Both the position numbers and the translations under genes were made by a program. Below, in pieces: positions 9,123 to 60,076 of a stretch of DNA of 64,000 bases; the stretch's first letter is position 1, and each line of letters opens with the position of its first letter. A model generated the notes under the pieces. The model was not told where the DNA came from. It saw only the letters and a program-made list of their open reading frames with translations, and did not search any database. Origin of the DNA: Methanosarcinales archaeon (GTDB taxonomy: Archaea > Halobacteriota > Methanosarcinia > Methanosarcinales > Methanoperedenaceae); NCBI GenBank assembly GCA_905339155.1, contig CAJPFJ010000024.1, positions 1 through 64,000 on the forward strand. The letters are read 5' to 3'.

Positions 9123-9154
9123 TTCACACTTCTTTCACAACCCTGTTTATATTA
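9123..9154 (+). promoter_or_regulatory. Paired TTCACA box plus TATA, chemoreceptor 1
   Basis: TTCACA at 9123-9128 and 9134-9139 (11-bp period), with the TATA-like TTTATATTA starting at 9146, 12 bp after the start of the second hexamer. It is the same architecture as six sites between 46.8 and 59.8 kb. Confidence 0.75.
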
Positions 9155-9201: not shown

Positions 9202-11397
9202 ATGATCAATTTCAAAGATATGTCTTTAAGCAAGAAGCTGATAGGCGGGTTCGGTATTATAATTCTCCTGCTTATAATAGTCGCCGCATTGAGCGTGATA
9301 AAATTAAGTTCAATGGAAACAGGAACAAAAAGTTTATTTGATAATGAGGTAAATTTAGGTAAAAAAGTAGATAATATAAGCATCAATCTTCTCCAGGCAA
9401 GACGTGATGAGAAAAATTTCTTGATGCGAAATGACCTTCAGTATATGGATAAGGTTAAGTCTTCAGTAAATGCCATCAAGAATGATGTTGCCGATATCTC
9501 AAACCTCGATATTGGACAGAAAGAAAAGGATAACGCTAATAACATTTTACCCCTGATCGCTGGTTATGAGAATACATTTCTTGAAGTTGTTTCTCTGCAA
9601 AAACAAATTGGTTTGCTGGAAATGGAAGGATTAAATGGAGATTTAATAAACCAGGCACGAGATGCAGAAAGTGATATAAAAAAGATCGGCAGCACAGATG
9701 CTCTGGCGTCGTTACTTGAAGCCAGAAGACATGAGAAAAACTATGTTCTCCGTAAGGATACGCTCTACCAGACAAAGGTGCATGATGCGGTAGATAAAGC
9801 TAAAAAGAGTGTATTATCCTTACAAGTATCGGATTCTGAGAAAAAACAGGTTAATTTGAAACTTGATCTATATTCAGCAACTTTTGATAAATTTGTAACC
9901 ATATCTATTCAAAGAGACAAAAAAGAAGAGGATCTCACAGGTAACGCGCGCCAGATAGATGTCCTTATTGCCAGTATAGTAATAGATTCCCAGACTAACC
10001 TGAACAATCGAATGGAGGCAATGACTGCTTCCAATAATACTTCGAAGATGACTGTTATTATATTGGCTATCATTGCAATTGTAACAGGTATTGGCGCCAG
10101 TATCTATATATCCCGCTCCATTACAGGGCCAGTGGATAATATTCTTGAGGCGTCAAAAAAAGTAGCAAAAGGCGACCTTACTGTGCAGGTGCAAAGCAAT
10201 CACAAGGACGAAGTGGGACAACTCTCCATGGCTATCCAGGACATGACCGGGAACTTAAAGACCGTGATCGGAAAAGTGCAAAAATCTGCGATGAAAGTCT
10301 CAACTACATCCCATGCGCTTTCAGATTCAAGCAAGGAAATGAAAGCGTCCACAGAGCAGGTATCCAACACAATGCAGGATATCTCCAAAGGAGTAAGCCA
10401 GCAGGCGACGGATATGACACAGATCGCAAAAGCCATGCAGGATATGTCGCATACAGTACAGCAAATTGCGACAAGTTCCCAGAAAGCATCGCTGCGGGCA
10501 GATGAAGCCAATAAGACTGCACAGGAAGCGGGCAGGATTTCCGGTAATGTCGCGCAGAAGATGAACGAGATAAAAACAACTGTCGATGGTTCAGCTGTTG
10601 TAATAAAGGAGCTTGAAGGCAAATCCCAGAAGATAGGCGAAATTATCGGCGTTATAACCAATATAGCAGACCAGACAAACCTGCTTGCCCTTAATGCAGC
10701 CATTGAAGCGGCACGGGCCGGAGAGCATGGAAGAGGATTTGCGGTTGTGGCTGACGAAGTTCGAAAACTCGCTGAGGAGTCAAGAATGGCGGCGAATCAG
10801 ATCACTAAACTGATAAAAGAAATCCAGCTGGGAACCAAGAAAGCTGTTGAAAGCATGGAAAACGGCACGAAAACTGTAAGTGAAGGTTCAGCTACTATTG
10901 ATATTGCCTCATCTGCAATTAATAATATCGTATCTAACGCAGGCGAAATTGCCAATATGATCCAGGAGATTGCGGCGACCGCACAAGAACAGTCAGCGTC
11001 TGTAGAAGAAGTCACAGCCGCGGTAGATAGTGTTTCAGCCATAAGCGAGGAATCTGCGGCAGGTACCGAGGAAGCCTCAGCCGCTACTGAAGAACTTACA
11101 GCCTCGATGGAGCAGCTCATGACATCTGCGCAGGAACTTGCGGAACTCTCAGAGGATCTGCAAATGGCTTCATCACACTTTGTGCTTAAGTCTGCTGATG
11201 ATTCCGAGCGCTGCTGGGATATCAAGAACTGCAGCAACGAGGCCAGACAGAAGTGCCCGGCATACAATTCCAAAGAACTTCGCTGCTGGCTGGTCGAAGG
11301 AACATGGTGCGGAGGAGTAAAGCAGGGTGATGCAAAAGCGAAAATCCACAACTGCATGAGCTGTGAAGCATTCAAGAAAAATATTGATGCGGAATGA
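9202..11397 (+). CDS. Chemoreceptor 1 (HBM sensor, two-CW tail)
   Basis: 731 aa methyl-accepting chemotaxis protein. TM1 is about residues 14-34, TM2 about 283-303. Between them lies a helical bimodular (HBM) sensor, marked by the twice-repeated motif [13 protein letters not shown] and [16 protein letters not shown] domains of characterised receptors bind small organic acids. HAMP follows, then the signalling hairpin with the conserved tip ([20 protein letters not shown] near 480-500). After residue 670 comes a Cys-rich module: [21 protein letters not shown] and CMSCEAF, the two-CW domain, also present as a separate protein at 59858. It is far from the other receptors but shares their promoter motif. 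Confidence 0.92.
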
Positions 11398-45561: not shown

Positions 45562-46713
45562 TCATGAAACATAAACTTCATTCGTTCTGATGACTTTCTC
45601 AACATCCCTTTCGAGTTTTAATAGCATGGACTTATCGAGTTTCTTCCCCTTTAGCTGTTCGATGAACATCAGGGATCTTGTATGGTCATCCGGAAGCAGT
45701 TTCCATGTGGGCCTTTCCACATAATAATCTATACCGTTAGCATATGCTATCATTTTTTCACATACTTCTTCGCTTATCCATCCTATGTCAATATAATACT
45801 CAAGGACTTCTGAAAGGTTGTTCCTTCCTACCTTTTCCAATAAGAATTCAATCCAATTCAACAGTATTATTGAAGTTTCTGCTTTATTATCCAGATATTG
45901 CAATTTAACATTCTCATCATGATATCGTGAACCCGGGGATATTTTACCTGTAGTGCCTCCATTGTCTGGCGAAATGGGCAATGATGATGATAGTGCAGCA
46001 GTCTGTTGAAGTTGTTGTTCGATCATTGGTTTTATTTGTTCTATCATGGGTTTTATTCTTTCCATTACCTGTTCTGCAACGTTCTTGATCATATCTTCAT
46101 TATTTAATGGGGTTGAATCCATCAACTGGGTTAATTCTTCCAGGCTCCCTTCAAGCGCTTTGAATTTAATATCATATTCTTCTTTGATATTTGTGGGGAT
46201 TTCAGACGGTTTCTGGCTTATTATATCAATTCTTTTTTCGAGTTGATCTAATTTCTCATTGGGAACCATACCCTTATCACCTACAAAAGGATTTACCGTA
46301 CTTGAAACAACTTCATATAATGATAATAATTCCAGAAGACTTTCATCTATTTTATCCAGCCGGTCTTTAAATTCACCAACTGAAGTTTTAGTGCTCGAAA
46401 CCGCACCCTCCAGTTTATTTATTTTAGTATCATATTCCTTGATAGCTTCAATACTTGTATTGAATTGGTCTGTTTTGGATTTTACAATTTCTTCGATCTT
46501 CCGGGTCATTTCCTCCTGGGCATTCTTGACCTGCTCTGAAATATCGAGCGCACTTGGTGCTGCAGAAGCAGAACCGGTATCAGAGGGAGAAACCGAAGGA
46601 GTAGTTGATGAAATTCCGGCATCTGGAGTCTTCTTGATGCGCTCGATCTTCTTTATGAGGGACTCTTCAGGCATCTTAAATTTTTTTAATTTTTCTGAAA
46701 TATCCTCAAACAT
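45562..46713 (-). CDS. FlaD/E-like archaellum accessory protein
   Basis: 383 aa. Residues ~50-230 are low-complexity and coiled coil (long Glu/Lys/Leu heptads); the C-terminal ~100 residues (SIILLNWIEFLLEKVG, LEYYIDIGWISEEV, GIDYYVERPTWKLLPDDH) match the FlaD/FlaE domain of archaellum accessory proteins, which link the motor to chemotaxis via CheF in euryarchaea. Divergent from the KaiC-like gene; other archaellum genes are not in the window, so it may be an adapter between receptor arrays and the motor. Confidence 0.75.
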   Translation of the reverse strand: MFEDISEKLKKFKMPEESLIKKIERIKKTPDAGISSTTPSVSPSDTGSASAAPSALDISEQVKNAQEEMTRKIEEIVKSKTDQFNTSIEAIKEYDTKINKLEGAVSSTKTSVGEFKDRLDKIDESLLELLSLYEVVSSTVNPFVGDKGMVPNEKLDQLEKRIDIISQKPSEIPTNIKEEYDIKFKALEGSLEELTQLMDSTPLNNEDMIKNVAEQVMERIKPMIEQIKPMIEQQLQQTAALSSSLPISPDNGGTTGKISPGSRYHDENVKLQYLDNKAETSIILLNWIEFLLEKVGRNNLSEVLEYYIDIGWISEEVCEKMIAYANGIDYYVERPTWKLLPDDHTRSLMFIEQLKGKKLDKSMLLKLERDVEKVIRTNEVYVS

Positions 46714-46802: not shown

Positions 46803-46833
46803 TTCACACACTTTTCACAACTGCGTTTATATA
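46803..46833 (+). promoter_or_regulatory. Paired TTCACA box plus TATA, KaiC-like gene
   Basis: TTCACA at 46803-46808 and 46814-46819, TATA-like TTTATATA starting at 46826, 12 bp after the start of the second hexamer. The only copy of this motif before a non-receptor ATPase gene. Confidence 0.75.
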
Positions 46834-46877
46834 CAGAAAAAATTAAACACATATACTTAGCTATTACGAGGTTCATT

Positions 46878-47630
46878 ATGAGAATAAAATCAGGAATTGA
46901 AGGATTTGATGCATTGGTTGAAGGAGGATTGCTGCAAGGCAGGCAGTACCTGGTGAGCGGCTCTCCCGGTAGCGGCAAGACTACTTTTGGCGTCCAATTT
47001 CTCACGGCAGGGGCGCTTGAAGGCGAAGCAGGAGCATACATTGCATTATCCGAGAGTATCGGAACAATTGAAGATGATATGTCCAGATATAATACTCAGA
47101 TCGGGGATCTTATCAAGAATAACAAATTGATCTTTATTGATCTTGGTCCTTCTGTAAATTATGGGGAATATGATGAGGTCTCAAATCTTATAACTCCCGA
47201 TTATCGCCAGCAATCCGGGGACTCACCTGCAAATCAAGCGCCTACTCCATTTTCCGTATTCAAAGATGTAGAAAAACATGTAAAGCAGTCCGGCATTAAG
47301 AGATTGGTTATTGACTCATTATCTTCGATCAGGTTCACAACACAGAATCCGGCATCAGAGGAGCGTTCTATCGGCAGGTTCATCCGAAACCTGAAAACCC
47401 TGGGCTGCACAACTATCCTGTTATCCGAGCTTACAAAGCCCGATGCTTATACAATAGAACAATTCGCATCTCACGGCGTGATATTCCTGCATAATTTCAT
47501 GGATAAACAGGGAAGTATGGTCCGGGCTTTACAGATCATTAAAATGCGCGGGACAAAACATGACTGTGAAATGCGATCCATTGAGTTTTCTGATAAAGGT
47601 TTAAAAGTTGGAAAAATGCTTAAAAAGTAA
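46878..47630 (+). CDS. KaiC-like RecA-superfamily ATPase
   Basis: 250 aa, one KaiC domain. Walker A GSPGSGKT at 28-35, Walker B-like RLVIDSLSS near 140, and FLTAGALEGEAGAYIALSE typical of the family. Single-domain KaiC/FlaH-like proteins in archaea act as regulatory ATPases in archaellum assembly or signalling. It lies between the FlaD/E-like gene and the chemoreceptors and shares their promoter motif, so a role in the chemotaxis/motility circuit is a strong inference. Followed in the same frame by a small gene. Confidence 0.85.
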   Translation: MRIKSGIEGFDALVEGGLLQGRQYLVSGSPGSGKTTFGVQFLTAGALEGEAGAYIALSESIGTIEDDMSRYNTQIGDLIKNNKLIFIDLGPSVNYGEYDEVSNLITPDYRQQSGDSPANQAPTPFSVFKDVEKHVKQSGIKRLVIDSLSSIRFTTQNPASEERSIGRFIRNLKTLGCTTILLSELTKPDAYTIEQFASHGVIFLHNFMDKQGSMVRALQIIKMRGTKHDCEMRSIEFSDKGLKVGKMLKK

Positions 47631-47648
47631 ATAAAGGGGGTTTTTCGT

Positions 47649-48083
47649 ATTACCAGTGATAGAGCGGAAAAGGAAAAGGCAGAGCTCATAAAGAAAATAT
47701 CCGATCTTGGCTTTGAGGTCGGGCTTAAGAACCATTCTGAAATTGGCTGGGTTTTAAGAGAGTATAACGGCCTCGTGGCAAAAGCTTACGCATCAGGAAT
47801 CAAAGCGCCTGATTCTTATTATGCTGACGGTAAGATCAAAGGCAAAACAAGCAGGGATAAAAATATTGAGGGACAAAAAATCCCTGAAAAAGAAACTCGA
47901 AAAGTCAGGAAGATCATTGTTAACGATCCGGTAGTTGACACCTCTATTCAAAAAGAGGAATCCGGATTTGATCATCGCCTGGAAAAACCCTCATTTAACG
48001 AGCTACCTAAATTTGTAGAGAAAAGCAGCGCTACAGAAATTCCAAGTTTTCTGGAAGGATTCAGGCCACATAAAAAAAAATGA
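47649..48083 (+). CDS. Small basic protein, probable non-canonical start
   Basis: About 144 aa if translation starts at ATT 47649. The reading frame is clearly protein-like upstream of the first canonical start (GTG 47775): TSDRAEKEKAELIKKISDL then GFEVGLKNHSEIGWVLREY. There is no ATG, GTG or TTG before 47775 after the KaiC stop (47628-47630), but AAGGGGG at 47634-47640 stands 8 nt before the ATT, a good ribosome site. Rich in Lys and Glu, C-terminal tail FLEGFRPHKKK. Cotranscribed with the KaiC-like gene, same frame. Function unknown. Confidence 0.6.
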   Translation: MTSDRAEKEKAELIKKISDLGFEVGLKNHSEIGWVLREYNGLVAKAYASGIKAPDSYYADGKIKGKTSRDKNIEGQKIPEKETRKVRKIIVNDPVVDTSIQKEESGFDHRLEKPSFNELPKFVEKSSATEIPSFLEGFRPHKKK

Positions 48084-48106
48084 AGGATTTTTTTTAACAG
48101 CAATAA

Positions 48107-48137
48107 TTCACACCTTTTTCACAAATCCGTTTATAAA
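48107..48137 (+). promoter_or_regulatory. Paired TTCACA box plus TATA, chemoreceptor 2
   Basis: TTCACA at 48107-48112 and 48118-48123, TATA box TTTATAAA at 48130-48137, 12 bp after the second hexamer start. An oligo-T run (48089-48096) just upstream could terminate the previous operon. Confidence 0.8.
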
Positions 48138-48223
48138 CTGGTGGATTTCTCTTTATATTCAGTAATAAATCTGAATGGGCGTTCTTTCAGATCGAATCCT
48201 AATCAAGGGAGGAATAAATTAAA

Positions 48224-50350
48224 ATGGTAAGTATAAAAGATATCTCATTAAGCAAGAAGCTGCTGGGCGGATTCGGCATCGTCAGCCTTATTCTTATAAT
48301 ATTGGCTGTGGTCAGTATAACCACACTTGGTACAGTTGACCAGGAAACTAATAAAGTAATCGCAAACCAGATCGCAGCAAAAGAAAAAGCTCTTGCTATG
48401 GATGTAAGTATGCTTGAAGCAAGACGTTCTGAGAAAGACTTTTTTGCACGTAAAGATCTGTCGTATGTCGATAAAGTAAAAACTTCTGCAGAGCTTGTAA
48501 AAAAAGACGCGCAAGATATTCAAAATTATGATATCCTTCAGGAAAGAAAGGATATGGCAGCAAAAATTATAACTGCAACAGATAGTTATGAAATCGCATT
48601 TCTTGAGACTGTTGAACTCGTTAAGACAAAAGGCCTTGATGAAACCCAGGGACTTCAGTTTGAAATGAGAAGTGCAGTGCAAGCTGTTGAAGCAGATATC
48701 ACAAATCAGAATAATGACCAGCTTATGGCTGATATGTTGACACTGAGGAGAAATGAAAAGGATTACATAATGAGACAGGATGTCTCGTATCAAAAAAAAA
48801 TGCACGACAATCAAATTATCCTTAAAAATCACCTGGCTGCAAGCAAACTGCCCGATAATGTGAAAGCAGATATCAATGCCAAGCTCGTTACATATATATC
48901 AGCTTTTGATAAGATCGTGGATATCGATGCTAAGATCGCATCTAAAACGGCAGAATTCACAACTTTCGTTCATGAGATAGAGCCTTTAACTGCCGAATTC
49001 CTGACGGATGCAGAGGCAGATGAAACTGCAGCACTTGCCGGAATAGCCAGTACGAATTCAACCGCCAGGACTACGATCATAATAATATCTATCGTAGCTA
49101 TAGTGACCGGTCTTGGTATCGGGATATATATCTCCCGTGCTATCACCAAACCAATGGATGCAATGCTTGCAGCTACCAACAAGGTTGCTGCAGGTGACCT
49201 GACAGTACAGCTTGTTAACGACTCCAGAGATGAAGTCGGTCAGCTTTCTAATGCCATACAGACAATGGCCGATAGCTTAAAAGGAGTGCTTGGAAAAGTG
49301 CAGCAATCAGCAATGAACGTGTCATCAACTGCCCAGGAACTCTCGGCATCAAGCGAACAGATGAAAGCCTCAACTGACCAGATATCAAGCACCACGCAGG
49401 ATATTTCCACAGGGGTAAGCTCGCAGGCGACTAAGATGGCTGAGATCACACGGGCCATGAAGGAAATGTCAGAAACCGTACAGCAAGTTGCTACGAACTC
49501 CCAGAAAGCGGCTGATAGCGCAACAAATGCCAATAAAACCGCCCAGGAAGTCCAGGTGAATGTGACAAAATCATCTACTTTGATAAAAGACCTTGATAAT
49601 AAATCCCAGCAGATAGGGAAGATCATTGGCGTAATAACAAATATCGCAGACCAGACAAACCTTCTTGCATTGAACGCCGCCATAGAAGCTGCGCGTGCGG
49701 GAGAACATGGCAGGGGTTTTGCCGTTGTTGCTGACGAGGTCAGGAAACTTGCCGAAGAATCAAGGGGCGCGGCAAGTCAGATCACAGATTTGATAAAAGG
49801 CATACAGCAGGGTACAAAACAGGCTGTGGACAGCATGGAGAAAGAATCAGTGACTGGAATCAACCTTATCGTCGAATCTGCCAGAAACGTTGCCACAATG
49901 GTACAGGAAATAGCTGCGGCTGCAGAAGAACAGTCTGCATCTGTTGAAGAAATAACCTCTTCAGTTGAAGATGTGGCAGCCATAAGCGAACAATCAGCGG
50001 CAGGCACACAGGAGACATCAGCGGCCGCAGAAGAGCAGACAGCTACAATGGACCAGCTTGTGGGTGCGGCTCAGAATATGGCAAAATTGGCAACTGATCT
50101 TCAGCTAGAAGTTGCCAAGTTCAATATCGGTGAATCTGCAGCAGAACAAGTGTATGAACCAGCAAGGACCGAGTACAAACCTGCTCCTGAACGCAAAACT
50201 GTAGAACACAAGACTGAGAAACACAAACCTGAAAGCAACCATAAGAAAATGAAGGAACACAGTGCAGCGGACAGTATGTCAAGGAAGGATGAAAGAGCTG
50301 ATGTCGGAGGCAATCCTCCGGGTTCAAGCCTTGAAGACCTGACAAGATAG
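48224..50350 (+). CDS. Chemoreceptor 2 (HBM sensor, shortened signalling arms)
   Basis: 708 aa. TM1 about 14-34, TM2 about 283-303. Periplasmic-side helical bimodular sensor with the twice-seen [13 protein letters not shown] and [11 protein letters not shown] motif. HAMP and MA domain follow, tip [20 protein letters not shown] near 480. Relative to receptors 3-5 the signalling hairpin is shorter by 14 residues on the ascending arm and 13 on the descending arm, suggesting another length class. A Lys/His-rich tail ends in SSLEDLTR, similar to receptor 3. Followed by cheW1 9 bp later (GGAGG ribosome site between). Confidence 0.92.
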
Positions 50351-50359
50351 GAGGACACA

Positions 50360-50878
50360 ATGGCTGAAATACAACCACAGGACGCAAAAGCAAAATCCGG
50401 CGATGAGCTCCAGCTCGTCGTTTTTAATATCGGCACTGAAGAGTTCGGCGTCGAGATCATGAACGTGCAGGAGATCATCCGCATGACAAATATCACAAAG
50501 ATACCACAGGCGTCAGGCTATGTGAAGGGAATTATCAACCTTCGCGGCAGGATAATCGTGGTGATCAATCTCAATGTGATAATGGGCATGGAAAGCAAAG
50601 AACAGAATGAGAATACCCGCATCATTGTCGCGGATATAGGCGAGACCGTGATGGGTTTTGTCGTTGATTCCGTAAGCGAGGTCATCCGCCTCCCCGAAAG
50701 CAGCGTTGAGCCGGCGCCGGCTGTCATTGCCAATAAGATCGGCACTGAATATGTGCGCGGCGTGGGCAAGATGGAAGACAGGCTGTTGATCCTGCTTGAT
50801 CTTGATAAGATCCTCAGCGCCAACGAACTTCATAATGTAAACAGCATTGCAGCAGAAGCTGTAGCAGCGACCACATAA
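50360..50878 (+). CDS. cheW: Chemotaxis coupling protein CheW, copy 1
   Basis: 172 aa CheW fold (two SH3-like beta barrels): LVVFNIGTEEFGVEIMNVQEI, IRMTNITKIPQASGYVKGIINLRG and VDSVSEVIRLPESSVEP. Links receptors to CheA. Follows receptor 2 in one operon. Very similar to copy 2 at 53395; the main differences are a few codons. Confidence 0.95.
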   Translation: MAEIQPQDAKAKSGDELQLVVFNIGTEEFGVEIMNVQEIIRMTNITKIPQASGYVKGIINLRGRIIVVINLNVIMGMESKEQNENTRIIVADIGETVMGFVVDSVSEVIRLPESSVEPAPAVIANKIGTEYVRGVGKMEDRLLILLDLDKILSANELHNVNSIAAEAVAATT

Positions 50879-50907
50879 GGAAGCTGCACCTGGAGAAAGA
50901 AAGAATT

Positions 50908-51290
50908 ATGAATAATAAATCAATTTGATATTTAAAAGGATAATACCTTTTCTATTGGTACTTCTTATTATTGGAGCAATGGCTGGAACGGCAGTTGAAT
51001 CCACAAGAACGGCTAATATCAGGCCGAATGTAGCAGGCATCGGTCATTGGCAATGTAGAAATCGGATACATGGTATACGTAGCGCCTTTTGCATCCATCA
51101 GGGGTGATGAAGGAACACGGGCCGGCAATAGTAGATGATGGCACATTTATTGGCATGCAGGCCCTGGTCTTCAAGGCGCAAGTTGGCAAGAACGTTGTCG
51201 TTGAGCTGGGAGCAATTTTGTGGAATGGCGTAAAGATAGCCGACGGCCGCTATGTCCCGGCAGGAATGGTAGTAGGAAAGAACAATTGCA
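50908..51290 (+). pseudogene. Decayed gamma-class carbonic anhydrase (Cam-like)
   Basis: Three frames together give a broken Cam: a signal peptide-like start (KRIIPFLLVLLIIGAMAGT), IGNVEIGYMVYVAPFASIRGDEG, and EHGPAIVDDGTFIGMQALVFKAQVGKN...ADGRYVPAGMVV. These match M. thermophila Cam in order. A frameshift after the opening ATG (50908), another near 51040, and a deletion of ~60 residues between RGDEG and HGPAIV remove two of the three zinc histidines (the HGPA His remains). The reading then runs into the receptor 3 promoter. It fills most of the gap between cheW1 and that promoter. Confidence 0.7.
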
Positions 51291-51329
51291 AAAGAGAAGG
51301 TGAGCGTTCACCTTCCAATTTTTCTTTTT

Positions 51330-51360
51330 TTCACACCTTTTTCACAAATCCGTTTATAAA
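51330..51360 (+). promoter_or_regulatory. Paired TTCACA box plus TATA, chemoreceptor 3
   Basis: TTCACA at 51330-51335 and 51341-51346, TATA box TTTATAAA at 51353-51360 (12 bp after second hexamer start), oligo-T immediately upstream. Confidence 0.8.
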
Positions 51361-51444
51361 GGCGTGGATTTCTCTTTGTTATTTAATAATCATCTGAAGG
51401 GTGTATCTTTCAGGTTGAATCCTAATAATGGAGGAATAACATAA

Positions 51445-53385
51445 ATGGTAAGCATAAAAGATATGTCTTTAAGCAAGAAAATGATCGGAGGATTTGCTCT
51501 CGTTGTAATACTTCTCGCTGTAGTAGGAATTGTAGGATATAATGGTGTCGTTTCTGTAAATAGTGACCTTGAAAGTGTACTCGGTTCAGAAGTTGTTATG
51601 TTGGATCTGGTGCAAAGCATGCAGTATTCAGTTGTCTCCATGGGTGATTCAGTTAATTCTTATGCCATCGGAGAAAAAAACGCAAAAGAAGATTATGAAG
51701 CTGCAAAAAAGGATATTAGTAAAGCTCATGAAAAATTGGCTGGCATGGATTTGACTGTTGATGAAAAGCAGACAATAGCAGAAATAGCAACTCTTGAATC
51801 CGCTTTTGAGGAATCCGGAGGTAAGTTCTTTGCGGCAATCGATGCAGCAAAGCTTGATAAGAATGTTGATTTAATAGCTCCAATGACCAATTTCGATGCC
51901 CAGAGGAAGAAACTGGGTGAAGTCCTCGGAAAATTTGAAAATATTCAAAATACACAAATGCAAGAAAGTGAAAGGGAAGCTAAGGCGACAGTAAACAATT
52001 CCATTTTGATGATAGTCTCAATAAGTATTATTGCAGCGATCATTGGTTTTGGCACCGGATGGTATATCTCCCGCTCAATAACAAAACCTGTGGACGCAAT
52101 GCTTATTGCTTCCAACAAAGTTGCCCAGGGCGATCTTACGGTACAAATCACGAACGATTCAAAAGACGAAGTGGGACAGCTATCACAGGCTATCAATATA
52201 ATGACCGGGAACTTAAAGGGCGTCCTTGGAAAGGTGCAGCAATCAGCAATGAATGTGGCATCAACCGCCCAGGAACTCTCTGCTTCAAGTGAGCAGATGA
52301 AGGCCTCAACCGACCAGATATCAAGCACCACACAGGACATTGCCACTGGTGTGGGCTCGCAGGCCTCCAAAATGTCTGAGATAAGCCGCGCCATGAAGGA
52401 AATGTCAGAAAGCGTCCAGCAGGTCGCCATGAACTCCCAGAAGGCCGCAGAAGGCGCAAATTCAGCCAGCACGACAGCCCAAAAAGTAGGCAAGATGTCA
52501 GACGATGTGGCGAAAAAGATGACCGAGATCCAGTCAACTGTGGATAATTCAGCAACAGTTATAAAACAGCTTGACGGAAAATCGCAGCAGATCGGCGAGA
52601 TAATTGGCGTCATCACAAATATCGCAGACCAGACCAACCTCCTTGCGCTCAATGCCGCCATAGAAGCGGCGCGTGCAGGAGAACATGGCCGGGGTTTTGC
52701 GGTAGTTGCTGACGAAGTAAGGAAACTTGCTGAGGAATCCCGTGGCGCTGCCAACCAGATCACAGGATTGATCAAAGATATACAGCAGGGCACAAAACAG
52801 GCTGTGACTACCATGGAACAGGGCACAAAGACGGTGGGAGAAGGCGCAAAGAACATAGCAGATACGGTGACCGCTATAGACGAGATCGTAAAAGCAGCCG
52901 CGGATGTTGCCACAATGGTACAGGAAATCGCGGCAGCAGCCGAAGAGCAGTCTGCTTCGGTTGAAGAAGTAACAGCTTCTGTTGAGGATGTATCAGCAAT
53001 AAGCGAGGAATCCGCAGCAGGCACACAGGAAACATCAGCAGCCGCAGAAGAACAGGCAGCTACAATGGATCAGCTTGTGAATGCATCCCAGGAAATGGCA
53101 AGATTGTCAAATGAATTGCAGGCCGAAGTTTCTAAATTCAATATCGGTGAAGCGGTTTCAACTTCAAAACAGGCATATGATCCATCAAAGATCGAGCATA
53201 AACCTGTTCCTGAACATAAGAATGTTCCTGAACACAAACCTGAAAATAAGACAGGGAAAAACAAACCCCAGGGCGGCCAGAAGAAAGGGAATGAACATAG
53301 TACTTCTGGCGGGATGGGAAAAGACGAAATAGCCCAGGGCGGGCACAGTCTAACGGGTTCAAGCCTTGAAGACCTGACAAAATAG
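51445..53385 (+). CDS. Chemoreceptor 3 (four-helix-bundle-like sensor)
   Basis: 646 aa. TM1 about 13-33, short helical extracytoplasmic sensor (~35-185) without HBM motif, TM2 about 190-210, HAMP, and full-length signalling hairpin with the [20 protein letters not shown] tip. The C-terminal Lys/Pro/His-rich tail ([15 protein letters not shown] repeats) ends in SSLEDLTK. cheW2 follows 9 bp downstream. The signalling half is nearly identical to receptor 4, the sensor halves are not, implying domain shuffling. Confidence 0.92.
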
Positions 53386-53394
53386 GAGGACACA

Positions 53395-53913
53395 ATGGCT
53401 GAAAAACAACCACAGGACGCAAAAGCAAAATCTGGCGACGAGCTCCAGCTCGTCGTTTTTAATATCGGCACTGAAGAGTTCGGTGTCGAGATCATGAATG
53501 TGCAGGAGATCATCCGCATGACCAATATCACAAAGATACCACAGGCATCAGGCTATGTGAAGGGAATTATCAACCTTCGCGGCAGGATAATCGTGGTGAT
53601 CAATCTTGATGTGATAATGGGTATGCAGAGCAAGGAACAGGACGAGAACACACGTATCATAGTTGCGGATATCGGTGAGACCGTGATGGGTTTCATTGTT
53701 GATTCCGTGAGCGAGGTCATACGCCTCCCTGAAAGCAGCGTCGAGCCGGCGCCCGCTGTCATTGCCAATAAGATCGGCACTGAATATGTGCGGGGCGTGG
53801 GCAAAATGGAAGACAGGCTGCTGATCCTGCTTGATCTTGACAGGATACTCAGCGCCAACGAACTTCATAATGTAAACAACATAGCAGCAGAAGCTGTAGC
53901 AGTGACCACATAA
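53395..53913 (+). CDS. cheW: Chemotaxis coupling protein CheW, copy 2
   Basis: 172 aa, nearly identical to copy 1 (differences such as AEKQP for AEIQP, NLDVIM for NLNVIM, QSKEQD for ESKEQN). CheW couples receptor to CheA. Same ribosome site and operon position as copy 1. A T-rich stretch follows the stop (53920-53932), probably the operon end. Confidence 0.95.
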   Translation: MAEKQPQDAKAKSGDELQLVVFNIGTEEFGVEIMNVQEIIRMTNITKIPQASGYVKGIINLRGRIIVVINLDVIMGMQSKEQDENTRIIVADIGETVMGFIVDSVSEVIRLPESSVEPAPAVIANKIGTEYVRGVGKMEDRLLILLDLDRILSANELHNVNNIAAEAVAVTT

Positions 53914-53933
53914 GCTGCTTTTTTTCTTTTTCG

Positions 53934-53964
53934 TTCACACCTTTTTCACAAATCGGTTTATAAA
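53934..53964 (+). promoter_or_regulatory. Paired TTCACA box plus TATA, chemoreceptor 4
   Basis: TTCACA at 53934-53939 and 53945-53950, TATA box TTTATAAA at 53957-53964, 12 bp after second hexamer start. Confidence 0.8.
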
Positions 53965-54015
53965 TAGGTAAATTCGTTTATAATTAATTGCAAATTTTTG
54001 GAATGAGCGAATTTT

Positions 54016-56070
54016 ATGAAAATCAAAGATATCAGCATAAAATACAAAATTATAATTTTTGCATTGATTCTCTCTATAATACCAGTGACGATCATAGGTT
54101 TATACGCCTATAATGAAACACAAAGCTCATTAAACTCAGAGATACAGAATAAATTAGAAGAGCAAGTAAATCTGGAAAAAGATACCGTAGATATGACTTT
54201 TTCTCTTGCGCAGAATAATGTCAACAGTTCACTCGGAGTTGCAAAAGCCCAATTCTATTCCAGGGGAAAACCAGGTATCGTAAATGGCAAGATGCAACTG
54301 GGCGACAATTATGTACTGAATGGGAACTTTGAGATAGTGGACTCAGTTAAAAATATGGTAGGTGGTACAGCAACGGTATTCCAGGTGATAGGGGATGAAG
54401 CTGTTCGAATTTCCACAAATGTTGTCAATACAGATGGTTCGCGCGCAGTAGGAACAACAGTTTCAAAACCAGTGTATGATGCTGTTATAATGCGCGGTGA
54501 GACATATTACGGCAGGGCATGGGTAGTTAATGCCTGGTATCTGTCAGCCTATGAACCTATTAAGGATGGATCGGGGAAGATAATCGGTATTTTGTATGTT
54601 GGTATTCCTGAGGATACGTTCGTAAATCAAATCAAAGAGAAGATGAAAAACATAGTAGTGGGAAAAACAGGTTATCTTTATGTTATTGACTCAAAAGGCA
54701 ACCTGATCATACATCCAAACAGGGAAGGGGAGAATATCTATGAGTATGATTTTATCAAAGAAATAACACAAACAAAGGAAGGCTACATCCAGTATCCATG
54801 GGAAGGGAAGGATAAAGTTGTTGCATATACTTATTATGAGCCAAGGGATTGGATAATAGCTTCAGGAAGTTATCTTGAAGATTTCAGCGATCCGATTTAT
54901 GCAATAAGGAATGGCCTGATAATAGTAATCTTATTTTTTTCAGTATTGGGTTCAATTCTTGGAATATGGTTTTCAAGATATCTCACTCGACCGATTGGCA
55001 GAATGCTTCGTATTTCCAATAAGATTGCAGCAGGCGACCTGACAGTCAGGGTGAAAAGCCTGTCAAAAGATGAGATAGGGCAGTTATTCGGTGCCCTGGG
55101 TACCATGACCGAGAACCTGAGATCAGTTATCGGAAAAGTGCAAAGCTCGGCATTGAAAGTAGCCTCTACGGCAAGTGACCTTTCCGCATCAAGCGAAGAG
55201 ATGAAAGCTTCATGTGAACAGATAACAGGAACTACACAGGAGATTGCCACAGGCGTAAGCTCACAGGCATCCAAGATGGCAGAAATTAGCCGAGCCATGA
55301 AGGAGATGTCAGAAAGCGTCCAGCAGGTTGCCACAAACTCCCAGAAAGCTGCAGAAGGCGCGAGTGCAGCCAGCACGACTGCCCAGAAAGTGGGCAAGAT
55401 GTCAGATGATGTGGCTAAAAAGATGACAGAAATCCAGTCCACAGTAGACGGTTCAGCAACAGTTATAAAACAGCTGGATGGTAAATCGCAGCAAATTGGC
55501 GAAATTATCGGTGTTATCACAAATATTGCAGACCAGACTAATCTCCTTGCCCTGAATGCTGCGATAGAAGCGGCACGTGCAGGAGAGCATGGAAGAGGCT
55601 TTGCCGTAGTTGCTGATGAAGTAAGAAAACTTGCTGAAGAATCCCGTGGCGCTGCCAACCAGATCACAGGATTGATCAAAGATATACAGCAGGGCACAAA
55701 ACAGGCTGTAACAACGATGGAACAGGGCACAAAGACGGTGGGAGAAGGCGCAAAGAACATAGCAGATACTGTGACTGCCATAGATGAGATCGTAAAAGCA
55801 GCCGCAGACGTTGCCACAATGGTACAGGAAATCGCGGCAGCAGCACAAGAACAATCCGCGTCTGTTGAAGAAGTAACAGCATCTGTTGAGGATGTATCAG
55901 CAATAAGCGAGCAATCAGCAGCAGGCACACAGGAAACATCAGCAGCTGCAGAAGAACAGGCAGCTACAATGGACCAGCTTGTGAATGCAGCCCAGGAAAT
56001 GGCAAAATTGTCAAATGAATTGCAGGCCGAGGTTGCAAAGTTCAAAATTGGAGAAGAAAAGAATACATAA
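54016..56070 (+). CDS. Chemoreceptor 4 (Cache_3-Cache_2 type sensor)
   Basis: 684 aa. TM1 about 11-31; a large extracytoplasmic Cache sensor (~40-295) with [41 protein letters not shown] and a second half ([29 protein letters not shown]), typical of tandem single-Cache domains that bind small ligands; TM2 about 297-318; HAMP; signalling hairpin almost identical to receptor 3. No C-terminal tail and no cheW follows; ends with FKIGEEKNT. The stop overlaps the start of a 50-codon frame (TAATG). Confidence 0.92.
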
Positions 56071-56222
56071 TGAGTGAAAAAAAGATAATGTTCGTTGGGT
56101 GTATCAAGGATAATAACAATTTCGGTTTGCTCAAATATATTATCAAAAGAGAAGACATGAGACAACTATTAACAAAAAAGGAGACTATATGTTATCATTT
56201 ATCCCATATTCTCATCAAATGA
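56070..56222 (+). CDS. Possible 50-aa protein coupled to receptor 4
   Basis: Frame begins with ATG overlapping the receptor 4 stop (TAATG) and runs 50 codons (KIMFVGCIKDNNNFGLLKYI and so on). Lys- and Ile-rich with no recognised domain. Weak evidence: could be a remnant of a downstream gene or chance. Confidence 0.25.
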   Translation: MSEKKIMFVGCIKDNNNFGLLKYIIKREDMRQLLTKKETICYHLSHILIK

Positions 56223-56301
56223 GCAACTGTTTCACTTTTGCACATGTTTATATGTTTGAACATCGTAATGATACTTTAACAATATTTAAAGGAGAAAAAA
56301 T

Positions 56302-57633
56302 ATGGGTATCATAAAAATAATCGATATAGCAAATGAAGTGACCATTGATAAATTCAATATCGGGATGAAAATCATTTACAGCTTCGTTGTGGTTGATGCA
56401 TTGATATTAATTATAGGATTTATAGGTTTATATGAGGAGAGAGTAAGCGTTTTTATTGATCCGAAACAGGCGATCATACTGTGTATAATTTTCGCCATAT
56501 TTTCATCAATACTCATGTGTATGGGGCTGATCCGTTCTATAATGAAACCGTTAAATGAATTTATAAATGCCGCTGACAAGATCGCTGATGGGGATCTAAC
56601 CGTGGAAGTAAATGTCTCCTCAAAGGACGAACTCGGACAGCTTGCGGAATATTTCAAGAGAATGACTTTGAACCTGCGAACTTTAACTGGCAAAGTCCGG
56701 AATGTCTCATTAAAAGTAGGCAATACCGCCCAGGAACTTTCCGCATCAAGCGAAGAAATGAAAGCCATATGTGATCAGATAACAGGAAATACACATGATA
56801 TTGCCACAGGTGTAAGCTCACAGGCATCCAAAATGAATGAAGTCAGCCGTGCAATGAAGGAAATGTCACAGAGCGTCCAGCAAGTCGCCGCAAACTCACA
56901 GAAAGCAGCCGAAGGCGCAACGGCTGCCAGCACGACTGCTTCGAATGTTGGTAAGATGTCAGGCGATGTGACGCATAAGATGACCGAGATCCAATCATCT
57001 GTGGATAATTCAGCAACAGTAATAAAACAGCTTGAAGGCAAATCACAGCAAATAGGCGAGATCATAGGCGTGATAACAAATATCGCAGACCAAACAAACC
57101 TTCTTGCCCTGAACGCTGCCATAGAAGCGGCACGTGCAGGAGAGCATGGAAGAGGCTTTGCCGTAGTTGCTGATGAAGTAAGAAAACTCGCAGAGGAATC
57201 AAGAAATGCCGCAAACCAGATAACAGGATTGATAAAAGAGATACAGCAGGGTACAAATCAGGCTGTTGTGGCCATGGAACAGGGTACAAAGACCGTTGGT
57301 GACGGAACTAAGATCATGGATGGCACAGTATCAGCAATCAACCAGATAGTCAAGGCTTCAGCAGATGTATCCACAATGATTAATGAAATTGCAGCAGCCA
57401 CAGAACAACAATCTGCCTCTGTTGAAGAGATAACAGCTTCAGTAGAAGATGTGTCATCTATATGTGAAGAATCAGCCGCAGGCACACAGGAAACATCAGC
57501 GGCAACGAAAGAGCAGGCAGTGTCAATGGATGTGCTTGTTAATGCAGCACAGGAACTGGCAAAATTATCAAATGAATTGCAGGCTGAGATTGCCAAATTC
57601 AATATTGGTGAATTAGGAGGACATAATGGCTGA
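56302..57633 (+). CDS. Chemoreceptor 5 (two spans, no sensor domain)
   Basis: 443 aa. Two spans (about 24-45 and 58-80) joined by a loop of about 15 residues, so no extracytoplasmic ligand domain; HAMP, then full-length signalling hairpin with [20 protein letters not shown]. Such receptors may sense membrane or energy state. RBS GGAG upstream. The TTCACA promoter is absent here; a vaguer TTCAC/TATATG region (56231-56254) lies upstream. The end overlaps the start of cheW3 remnant by 8 bp. Confidence 0.9.
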
Positions 57634-57745
57634 AAAACAACCACAGGACGCAAAAGCAAAATCCGGCGATGAGCTTCAGCTGGTCGTTTTTAATATCGGC
57701 ACTGCAAAAGCTATTAGTACCCGAATGCAAATAATACCTCAATGA
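57626..57745 (+). pseudogene. cheW: cheW copy 3, 5' remnant
   Basis: The first 26 codons equal cheW1/2 ([17 protein letters not shown], ending FNIGT at 57703) with the same ribosome site, then the reading diverges and stops at 57743-57745. The stop overlaps the ATG of the acylphosphatase-like gene (ATGA). The missing middle is replaced; the last codons reappear at 58328. Confidence 0.8.
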
Positions 57746-58263
57746 AGATTAAGACGAAAATAACAGGGAATAAGGTACATGATGTAGGTTATTGTGTTTT
57801 TTTGCTTCGAAAAGCCCTTGAGCTTGGAGTAGAGAGGTTCAATGCCTATAACACAAAGGAGAATGGAGTCCAGACGCTCATTTCTTTCCTGGAATGCGAC
57901 AGCGATCAAATATTGACATTCCAGGATTATGTTCAGAATAATAAACCGGAAAATGCGCAAGTATCAGATATCATTTTTGAAGATCATACGGGTTATATAA
58001 TAGGAATTGTCGACTATATGCACTTTATCCAGGTCGAGCAACTCAGCAAGGGAATACCTGCTATTTTAAGTATTGACAGAAAACAGGATAAAATGCTGGG
58101 AAAGCAAGATCAGATGCTGGAAAAGCAAGATCAAACTAAGAATGAGATTAGCGGCGAGATAAGAGAACTCCGGCGGGATTTAAGATCATGCCTTGATGAA
58201 AAACTTCTCAAAATAGAAAGTGATATTTTACAGATCAAAGCAAAAATCGGGCTTAAGGCATAA
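57742..58263 (+). CDS. Acylphosphatase-like protein with C-terminal coiled coil
   Basis: 173 aa. Residues 1-~85 resemble the acylphosphatase fold (KITGNKVHDVGY, LGVERFNAYNT, NGVQTLISF), but the motif Arg after VGY/F is Cys here (VGYCVF), so the hydrolase activity is probably lost. A linker with repeated KQDQMLEKQDQ units leads into a charged coiled coil (EIRELRRDLRSCLDEKLL). It replaces the central part of cheW3 and is coupled to its remnant. Function may be binding rather than catalysis. Confidence 0.65.
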   Translation: MKIKTKITGNKVHDVGYCVFLLRKALELGVERFNAYNTKENGVQTLISFLECDSDQILTFQDYVQNNKPENAQVSDIIFEDHTGYIIGIVDYMHFIQVEQLSKGIPAILSIDRKQDKMLGKQDQMLEKQDQTKNEISGEIRELRRDLRSCLDEKLLKIESDILQIKAKIGLKA

Positions 58264-58327
58264 CCTTAACCATTCAATTTGATAGCATAAAAATAGCTTT
58301 CAATAGCTTTTTTATAGCATCTTGATA

Positions 58328-58354
58328 TCAGAAGCTGTAGCAGCGACCACATAA
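58328..58354 (+). pseudogene. cheW: cheW copy 3, 3' remnant
   Basis: TCA followed by codons for EAVAATT and TAA, identical in sequence to the last codons of cheW1, and followed by the same flanking AGAAGCT. With the 5' remnant it shows that 57704-58327 replaced the centre of a third cheW. Confidence 0.75.
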
Positions 58355-58375
58355 AGAAGCTCCTTTTTTTCTTTT

Positions 58376-58405
58376 TTCACACGTTTTTCACAAATTGATA
58401 TATAA
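58376..58405 (+). promoter_or_regulatory. Paired TTCACA box plus TATA, chemoreceptor 6
   Basis: TTCACA at 58376-58381 and 58387-58392, TATA-like TATATAA at 58399-58405, 12 bp after second hexamer start. Oligo-T upstream. Confidence 0.75.
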
Positions 58406-58478
58406 GAAAGCATGTTCAATTTTCAAGTATTGATGAAATTTGGAGAGGGTTTTAGACAAAAAATTTAAAGGCAATATT

Positions 58479-59792
58479 ATGGGCTCAATGAAAATTATGG
58501 ATCAGATCAATAAGTTAACCCTTAATAGGTTAAATATTGGAAAGAAAATCGCTTATGGTTTCATTGTAGTCAATATATTGTGGTTGATCGTGGTGTATTT
58601 TGTTTATTATCATGAGAGAATTATTACAATTTTTGACACTGATGAGGCAATCATGATTTTAATTTTTTTCGCGATCATGTCATCTATACTCATGTGCATT
58701 GGATTGACACGTTCCATTATGAAACCCTTAAATGAATTTGATATCGCCGCTAATCGAATAGCGCAAGGAGACCTCACAGTAGATATTGAGGTTACATCCA
58801 GGGACGAACTCGGAGGACTTGCAGGATACTTCATAAAAATGACATCTACACTCAGGCGCATAACCGGGAAGGTACAGGATATCTCTTTAAAAATGGCAAT
58901 TAAAGCAAATGAGCTTTCTGTATCAAGCTCGGAGTTGAAATCTTCAATTGACAATATATCAAATAATACACAGGGTATAGCAGAAGGATCAAGCCAGCAA
59001 TCAAAAAAAATAGAGAATATCAATAAGATCGTAAATGAGATGTCACTCATCAAGCAGCAGGTTACAGTCGGATCGGAAAGGACGGCGCAGGCTACAAAAG
59101 ATTCCAATAATACAGCAAAGGAATTACTCCAGAAATCAAATGACTTGATGAACAAAATAAAGGATATTCAGAACTCAGTAAATAAATCCGCCCTTGTCAT
59201 AAAGAATCTTGATAGTAATTCTGAAAAAATAGGTGAAATAGTAGGAGTAATAACTAATATTGCAGACCAGACAAACCTGCTTGCCCTGAACGCTGCAATT
59301 GAAGCGGCCCGCGCCGGGGAGCACGGAAGAGGATTTGCTGTCGTGGCAAATGAAGTAAAGAAACTTGCAGAAGAATCAAGGAATTCGGCAAATAAGATCA
59401 CAGAACTGATAAGAGAGATACAACAGGAAACGAAAAAGGCTGTGGATAACATGGATCTTGGGACAAAGACCGTTATTGAAGGCACAAAAACGATCGATTC
59501 CACTATATCTTCTATAAATAGTATAGTTGAGGCGTCTGAAAATGCTGCTAACATGTTCAGTGAAATAATTGAAATGGCAAAAATGGAGGCAATTTCAATG
59601 GAAAAAGTAAAATCCTCAGTTGATGACATTTCTATACTAGCTAAAAAATTTAATGCGGCTATTGAGGAAGCAGATGCACAAGTCCATGAACAGGCGACAT
59701 CTATTAGCATGTTCACAGATATCGCCAGGGAATTAGCAGAATTGTCGGGTGAATTGAAAAATGAAATTTCTTTATTCAAACAAAAAGATTGA
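58479..59792 (+). CDS. Chemoreceptor 6 (two spans, divergent hairpin)
   Basis: 437 aa from the ATG at 58479 (AAAGG ribosome site; the frame is open from a TTG at 58440). Two spans with a short extracytoplasmic loop as in receptor 5, HAMP, and a signalling hairpin with intact [20 protein letters not shown] tip but otherwise divergent arms (Lys/Asn-rich; lacks the A-A-E-E-Q-S-A-S stretch). Possibly a receptor of another array. No tail or cheW follows. Confidence 0.88.
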
Positions 59793-59803
59793 ATAAATAT
59801 TTG

Positions 59804-59833
59804 TTCACATATTTTTCACAATTATGTATATAA
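59804..59833 (+). promoter_or_regulatory. Paired TTCACA box plus TATA, two-CW protein
   Basis: TTCACA at 59804-59809 and 59815-59820, TATA-like TATATAA at 59827-59833, 12 bp after second hexamer start. Shows the regulon extends beyond receptors. Confidence 0.75.
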
Positions 59834-59857: not shown

Positions 59858-60076
59858 ATGGCACCAAATAATTGCTGGGAATTAAAAAATTGCGGAAGAG
59901 AGAAAGCCGGAAAAAAAGTAAACGAATTGGGAATATGTCCTGCATCACCTTCTCATGGCAGGGATTGCTGGATGGTAGCCGGGACTTTCTGTGGCGGCAA
60001 GGTTCAAGGATCCTTTGCTCAAAAAAAAGCAAGTTGTTTGACATGTGATTGGTATAAAACAGTAAGCTCAACCTGA
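59858..60076 (+). CDS. Stand-alone two-CW domain protein
   Basis: 72 aa. Pattern NCWELKNCGRE, CPAS, RDCWMVAGTFCGG and SCLTCDWY matches the two-CW domain, also fused to receptor 1. Six to seven Cys and two CW pairs suggest metal or redox binding. Same promoter type as the receptors, so it may modulate or sense redox state for the chemotaxis system; this is inferred. Confidence 0.8.
   Translation: MAPNNCWELKNCGREKAGKKVNELGICPASPSHGRDCWMVAGTFCGGKVQGSFAQKKASCLTCDWYKTVSST

Follow-up and report, generated by a model that had tools for sequence, protein, structure and literature searches.

To our knowledge, the regulators of archaeal motility known in Euryarchaeota are few, namely EarA and CsmR. 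EarA of Methanococcus maripaludis and Pyrococcus furiosus is associated with repeated hexamers directly upstream of the poor B recognition element (BRE) of archaellum promoters, and recruitment of transcription factor B (TFB) has been proposed for these systems (PMC5512572, PMC10665913). The subject of this analysis is a 64,000-nucleotide stretch (hereafter the window, C24:1-64000) from a Methanosarcinales archaeon of the Methanoperedenaceae, in which an earlier note based on the letters alone had described promoters carrying two TTCACA hexamers ahead of a TATA-like box. We propose that this tandem element serves in Methanoperedens as the operator for a set of motility and chemotaxis genes dispersed over the genome, a regulon that would be activated via a ribbon-helix-helix (RHH) factor, most likely a 342-amino acid protein that we call REG, and we place the probability of this reading at about 0.58.

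The element resembles the EarA arrangement in that repeated sites stand directly upstream of the BRE, the second hexamer here lying 6 bp before the box. The EarA hexamer, however, is TACATA (PMC5512572, PMC10665913), whereas TTCACA recurs at a fixed 11 bp in 72 aligned sites and is found also before receptor genes, che genes and a candidate regulator. In addition, EarA is a winged helix-turn-helix protein (PMC13286277), whereas the N-terminus of REG matches an RHH profile and REG has no Pfam winged-helix match. CsmR of Haloferax volcanii is similar in that it regulates motility genes locally and has its sites next to the TATA box, but it is a winged-helix protein that reads the semi-palindrome TATCA-N4-TGATA, unlike the direct repeat described here, and its targets rise in the deletion strain (PMC13286277). 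In the listed open papers on the Methanoperedens/ANME-2d archaellum, on Methanoperedens promoter motifs and transcriptional regulators, on RHH proteins and the archaellum, and on TTCACA promoters, represented mostly by titles and the beginnings of abstracts, the element was not found reported.

Within the window, the two hexamers lie 11 bp apart on the plus strand with 12 bp from the start of the second to the box at all seven promoters named in the earlier note. The sites (9123..9150, 46803..46830, 48107..48134, 51330..51357, 53934..53961, 58376..58403 and 59804..59831) are exact matches and precede, in that order, the genes for receptor 1, a KaiC-family ATPase, receptors 2, 3, 4 and 6, and a small protein that the note had labeled two-CW. 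The start codons follow 54-117 bp downstream of the motif start. As that note had stated, four of the five receptors of the chemotaxis island are served, and receptor 5 (56302) has no upstream element in a window scan at up to three mismatches. The box is present at all seven sites, although the term TATA-like needs narrowing to T(T/A)TATA (TTTATA at five, TATATA at two). Exact TTCACA-N5-TTCACA occurs seven times in the window and not once in any of 100 dinucleotide-preserving shuffles. When the element plus TATA is allowed up to three mismatches there are eight window matches against a shuffle mean of 1.12 and a shuffle maximum of 4, the eighth (17876, three mismatches) probably being noise. 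Looser matching was rejected as evidence: at two mismatches without the box, nine matches are found in the window against 8.2 expected, and because this count equals chance it is the exact hexamers that matter. A chance origin is ruled out by the shuffles together with the reversed patterns (0 in 40 genomes; 12 against 45; 11 against 34).

The same selectivity holds across the assembly (3.34 Mb in 79 contigs, 97% complete, 5.4% contamination). It contains nine perfect sites with the box, namely the seven in the window, C17:18600 and C36:26744. The first of the two additional sites is upstream of an operon of three archaellin-like genes followed by ArlF- and ArlG-like genes, which fall below their NCBIfam cut-offs, and ArlH, ArlI and ArlJ, which exceed them; the second is upstream of REG. 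All nine thus precede genes for motility, signalling or a candidate regulator (five receptors, the KaiC and two-CW genes, the archaellin operon and REG), and the reversed pattern gives 0 matches at up to one mismatch, which supports the motility regulon that the earlier note had thought probable. Seven receptor genes are present in the genome (eight matches, two of them within one gene), and the element stands before five; the genome scan found none upstream of receptor 5 or of a receptor on C10. A two-mismatch copy at C17:25480 precedes an operon with CheY, CheB and CheA genes. Five further sites have one mismatch: one on C7 before a HAMP-PAS histidine kinase, one on C53 before an uncharacterised 164-amino acid membrane protein, two on C16 (75510 and 76074; L031 9511 and 10075, minus strand), and one on C22 with no assigned gene. 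The two C16 promoters are near-identical tandems with the box 1-2 bp further away; one stands before a type IV pilus-like operon whose first gene encodes a secreted protein, the other before a cupredoxin-like gene, and they are perhaps a sister regulon. Searching the genome at three mismatches with the box returned 82 matches against 36 for the reversed pattern, and such loose sites were set aside as evidence, which comprises sites with zero or one mismatch plus the che site.

The geometry of the element is rigid. Among the 34 pairs of TTCACA in the genome separated by 0-25 bp, the N5 spacing accounts for 11 and any other spacing for at most three, and in nine of the 11 N5 pairs the box is exactly 6 bp downstream. 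Alignment of the 72 sites with a recognised gene gives the consensus TTCACAC-N-TTTTTCACAA-(A/C)TCCG-TTTATAT, or as a continuous string TTCACACNTTTTTCACAA(A/C)TCCGTTTATAT, in which the hexamer and box letters were selected for and the promoters, some of them related, do not count as independent cases. Also conserved are a C immediately 3' of the first hexamer, a run of T and an A immediately 3' of the second, none of which had been used to pick the sites. The fixed N5 spacing of the earlier description therefore stands, whereas its free spacer letters do not, since they are constrained over these 72 sites. In the six bases between the second hexamer and the box, purines make up 13%, 14% and 25% at positions -4 to -2, and because this segment is pyrimidine-rich the BRE of the regulon promoters is suggested to be a poor one. 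A purine comparison with 37 control promoters was discarded, as three of the seven regulon boxes in it had been picked wrongly and the controls contained one regulon gene or more. The fixed distance to the box is what one would expect if the hexamers were an extended promoter read by a special TFB and not by an activator, but the element extends as far as 23 bp ahead of the box, past the 6-7 bp of a BRE (PMC5512572), and at three of 73 sites a third hexamer copy occurs 11 bp further upstream (L146 12777, which is the archaellin promoter of G019; L139 429; L145 9106). These third copies fit the stacking of further dimers, and we regard the special TFB as very improbable.

The distribution of the element among related organisms follows the same pattern. 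Forty genomes, 24 within the genus and 16 outside it, were searched at up to one mismatch, and sites were found in 20 of them: 19 of the 24 in the genus and one of the 16 outside (G024, with a single one-mismatch site). The reversed pattern at the same threshold had no match in any of the 40, this genome included. Genes behind every site counted at this threshold were surveyed in this genome and in G021, G017, G019, G007, G014 and G010, with one duplicate place dropped and with assignment by best blastp match to the genes of this genome (six by hand). The 53 perfect sites precede 22 receptors, seven archaellins, five KaiC genes, three REG genes, five histidine kinases and three two-CW genes, with two members of a 120-amino acid membrane family, one of a 164-amino acid family and five sites without an assigned gene making up the remainder. 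The link to motility is therefore strong in the relatives without being total. G007 and G014 contribute four of the five perfect sites that lack an assigned gene, so the targets may be different ones in some relatives. The 46 one-mismatch sites include seven receptors, three archaellins, three REG genes, two KaiC genes and a single two-CW gene, and 15 have no assigned gene. Behind two of the 46 are che operons (G019 and G014), two further matches of this class being receiver-domain proteins only, and at two sites assigned to CheB the first gene encodes 118 amino acids, the length of CheY. Homologs of the two-CW gene lie downstream of the element in G021, G017 and G019 (tblastn, 69-94% identity). 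In several genomes the element is followed by small, uncharacterised membrane proteins about 160 or 120 amino acids long (L045 3258-3752, minus strand; L114 438; L118, L136, L144 and L150). The longer spacer consensus, run across the genus at two mismatches, was discarded as evidence: it matched 30 of 31 genomes, but the reversed control matched most of them too.

Several lines of evidence make REG the best candidate for the reader of the element, which gives a concrete candidate for the activator that the earlier note had considered beside a special TFB. Its gene (C36:25670-26698, minus strand) carries the element at C36:26744, and orthologs with 94% identity are present in Candidatus Methanoperedens sp. 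BLZ2 and an uncultured archaeon isolate. When T, A or C is allowed as the first letter of each hexamer, the element stands at the start of REG in 19 of 19 loci that contain the gene start (20 loci were named, and L077 begins inside the gene). An extra half-site within 80 bp upstream is found at 15 of these 19 promoters compared with seven of 67 other regulon promoters, and in this genome the extra copy belongs to an inverted GTGTGAA/TTCACAC pair. In six named loci (L068, L069, L070, L072, L075 and L076) REG is followed by a gene for a 223-amino acid RHH-like protein, a response regulator and the archaellins, and in L073 and L074 FlaD/E and KaiC genes are upstream of REG with the 223-amino acid gene downstream. 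Of the 24 genus genomes, 17 contain a REG ortholog above 380 bits (in two pieces in G002), and the number of sites in each of them lies between 5 and 22. In the seven that lack REG, sites are few or absent (G010 three, G023 one, and G001, G012, G013, G016 and G022 zero), and six of these seven have ArlJ over its cut-off. Among the genomes outside the genus, ArlJ exceeds its cut-off in seven, six of which also have receptors above theirs; all seven lack both the element and a REG ortholog.

The neighborhood of REG also brings in a second possible reader. The 223-amino acid protein (C17:17091-17762), acting alone or in a mixed pair with REG, could recognise the element: it shares with REG the motif RKN(I/V)S in the predicted strand, in this genome its gene and the response regulator precede the archaellins on C17, and its orthologs above 270 bits occur in 17 of 24 genus genomes, among them G010 and G023, which have sites and no REG. 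This alternative is in our view unlikely, as the promoter of the 223-amino acid gene in this genome lacks the element, unlike that of REG, and as no ortholog was found in G018, which is 84% complete and has nine sites, while G009 yielded just a fragment.

The N-terminus of REG is likely an RHH domain, judging from profile comparison. When 14 REG-family members were aligned and their first 47 columns made into a profile, it matched an RHH_1 profile of 30 segments from these genomes at 90.4% probability (hhalign, score 29.2). None of 60 column-shuffled profiles did as well (maximum 15.4), the reversed profile reached 0.6% probability, and a second profile built from 22 N-termini gave 61.7%. Structure models of REG show an extended start at low confidence, helices at 11-23 and 28-44, and no strand. 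Among five further paralogs in this genome, four read xRHIS or TKHIS at the motif and the one on C3 reads RKNIS. Searches of Pfam, NCBIfam, PADLOC and PDB sequences returned nothing that identifies REG, and naming its C-terminal part by fold was abandoned, the matches being homing endonucleases, H-NOX and TRAPP-like proteins (best E 0.0017) on a weak model (mean pLDDT 62). Two known RHH proteins offer a comparison. The plasmid RHH protein omega (ParB of pSM19035) reads WATCACW with one dimer per copy, and is similar in that its dimers occupy direct repeats whose TCAC core is close to that of TTCACA, but its repeats are contiguous at 7 bp and serve bacterial plasmid partition and repression, unrelated to motility (PMC9499535). 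CdrS is an archaeal RHH transcription regulator, likened here by description; it differs in regulating ftsZ2 and cell division in haloarchaea (PMC7439475).

A number of observations weigh against REG as the reader. In this genome REG stands alone on C36, apart from the motility genes, and it is one of seven family members. G010 (87% complete) and G023 (74% complete) have sites with no REG found. The RHH profile is redundant, many of its 30 segments being near-identical and NikR-like; Pfam and NCBIfam contain no RHH match for REG, and a fold search with its N-terminus had no significant match, the best relevant one being NikR at E 9.6. The five congeners with zero sites have no receptor or one and a different archaellum. 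Most of the genomes without REG also lack the chemotaxis cluster. Because it is the entire cluster that sets the zero-site congeners apart, co-occurrence cannot point to REG in particular, and presence and absence were rejected as proof of its role; the element tracks the whole motility and chemotaxis cluster, of which REG is one part. The loci examined from the five (G001, G012, G013, G016 and G022), among them archaellin promoters of G012, G013, G016 and G022, contain no tandem at up to one mismatch, which was the one motif sought there. Their archaellum locus is organised differently (L161-L164 in G022, G012, G001 and G016; L165 in G013), with two consecutive ArlI copies in four of the five.

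With these reservations in view, we infer that REG binds the tandem element cooperatively, with one dimer per TTCACA. The 11-bp period would put both dimers on one helical face, and the pair, which adjoins an apparently poor BRE followed by the box, would recruit TFB or TBP. Such recruitment would switch on the archaellins, the che operon, most receptors and the KaiC-like ATPase, and REG would switch on its own gene too. The element could also be read as a repressor operator, with an RHH protein turning the genes off. Repressors commonly regulate their own genes, and CsmR represses with a site next to the TATA box (PMC13286277). Yet a tandem that stops 6 bp short of the box has the arrangement seen with EarA and other activators that bind close to the BRE (PMC5512572, PMC10665913), and the pyrimidine-rich BRE positions described above likewise speak against repression. 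Activation by REG is the likelier mode, and the repressor account appears quite improbable.

The window genes concerned are as follows. Receptor 1 (9202..11397, plus strand, 731 amino acids) is a 4HB-HAMP-MCPsignal protein in Pfam, with its ATG 79 bp after the motif start. The KaiC-family ATPase (46878..47630, plus strand, 250 amino acids, PF06745) has a promoter divergent from a FlaD/E gene on the minus strand (45562-46713, Pfam). Pfam matches on the plus strand further identify receptor 2 (48224..50350, 708 amino acids, HAMP-MCPsignal), receptor 3 (51445..53385, 646 amino acids, 4HB-HAMP-MCPsignal), receptor 4 (54016..56070, 684 amino acids, Cache-HAMP-MCPsignal), receptor 5 (56302..57633) and receptor 6 (58440..59792, HAMP-MCPsignal, starting at TTG 58440 or ATG 58479). 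The two-CW gene (59858..60076, plus strand) translates to 72 amino acids, and a Pfam search with its product gave no match. CheW genes (Pfam) lie 3' of receptor 2 (50360-50878) and 3' of receptor 3 (53395-53913); they are of equal length (172 amino acids) with near-equal Pfam scores, and are probably a duplication. Elsewhere in the genome three longer REG paralogs lie close together on C63 (L053-L055), and among the genes of L053 and L054 are some whose CxxCH motifs, read by eye, make them resemble multihaem cytochromes.

Compared with EarA and CsmR, what would be new in this case of BRE-proximal control of archaellum genes is the putative DNA-binding fold, the operator and the greater breadth of the regulon. 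Since the element precedes filament, sensing and REG genes, one switch seems to control much of motility. It is conceivable, at somewhat less than even odds, that REG represents a new type of master regulator for motility in archaea, one combining an RHH domain with a large unclassified C-terminal part, binding tandem sites, recruiting TFB and acting at 10-20 promoters including its own; under this tentative reading, family members near multihaem cytochrome-like genes would link motility with the control of electron transfer. For a methane-oxidising lineage the analysis provides an operator together with its candidate regulator and a list of targets, and the element flags uncharacterised small proteins (the two-CW protein and the 164- and 120-amino acid membrane proteins) as candidates for roles in motility.

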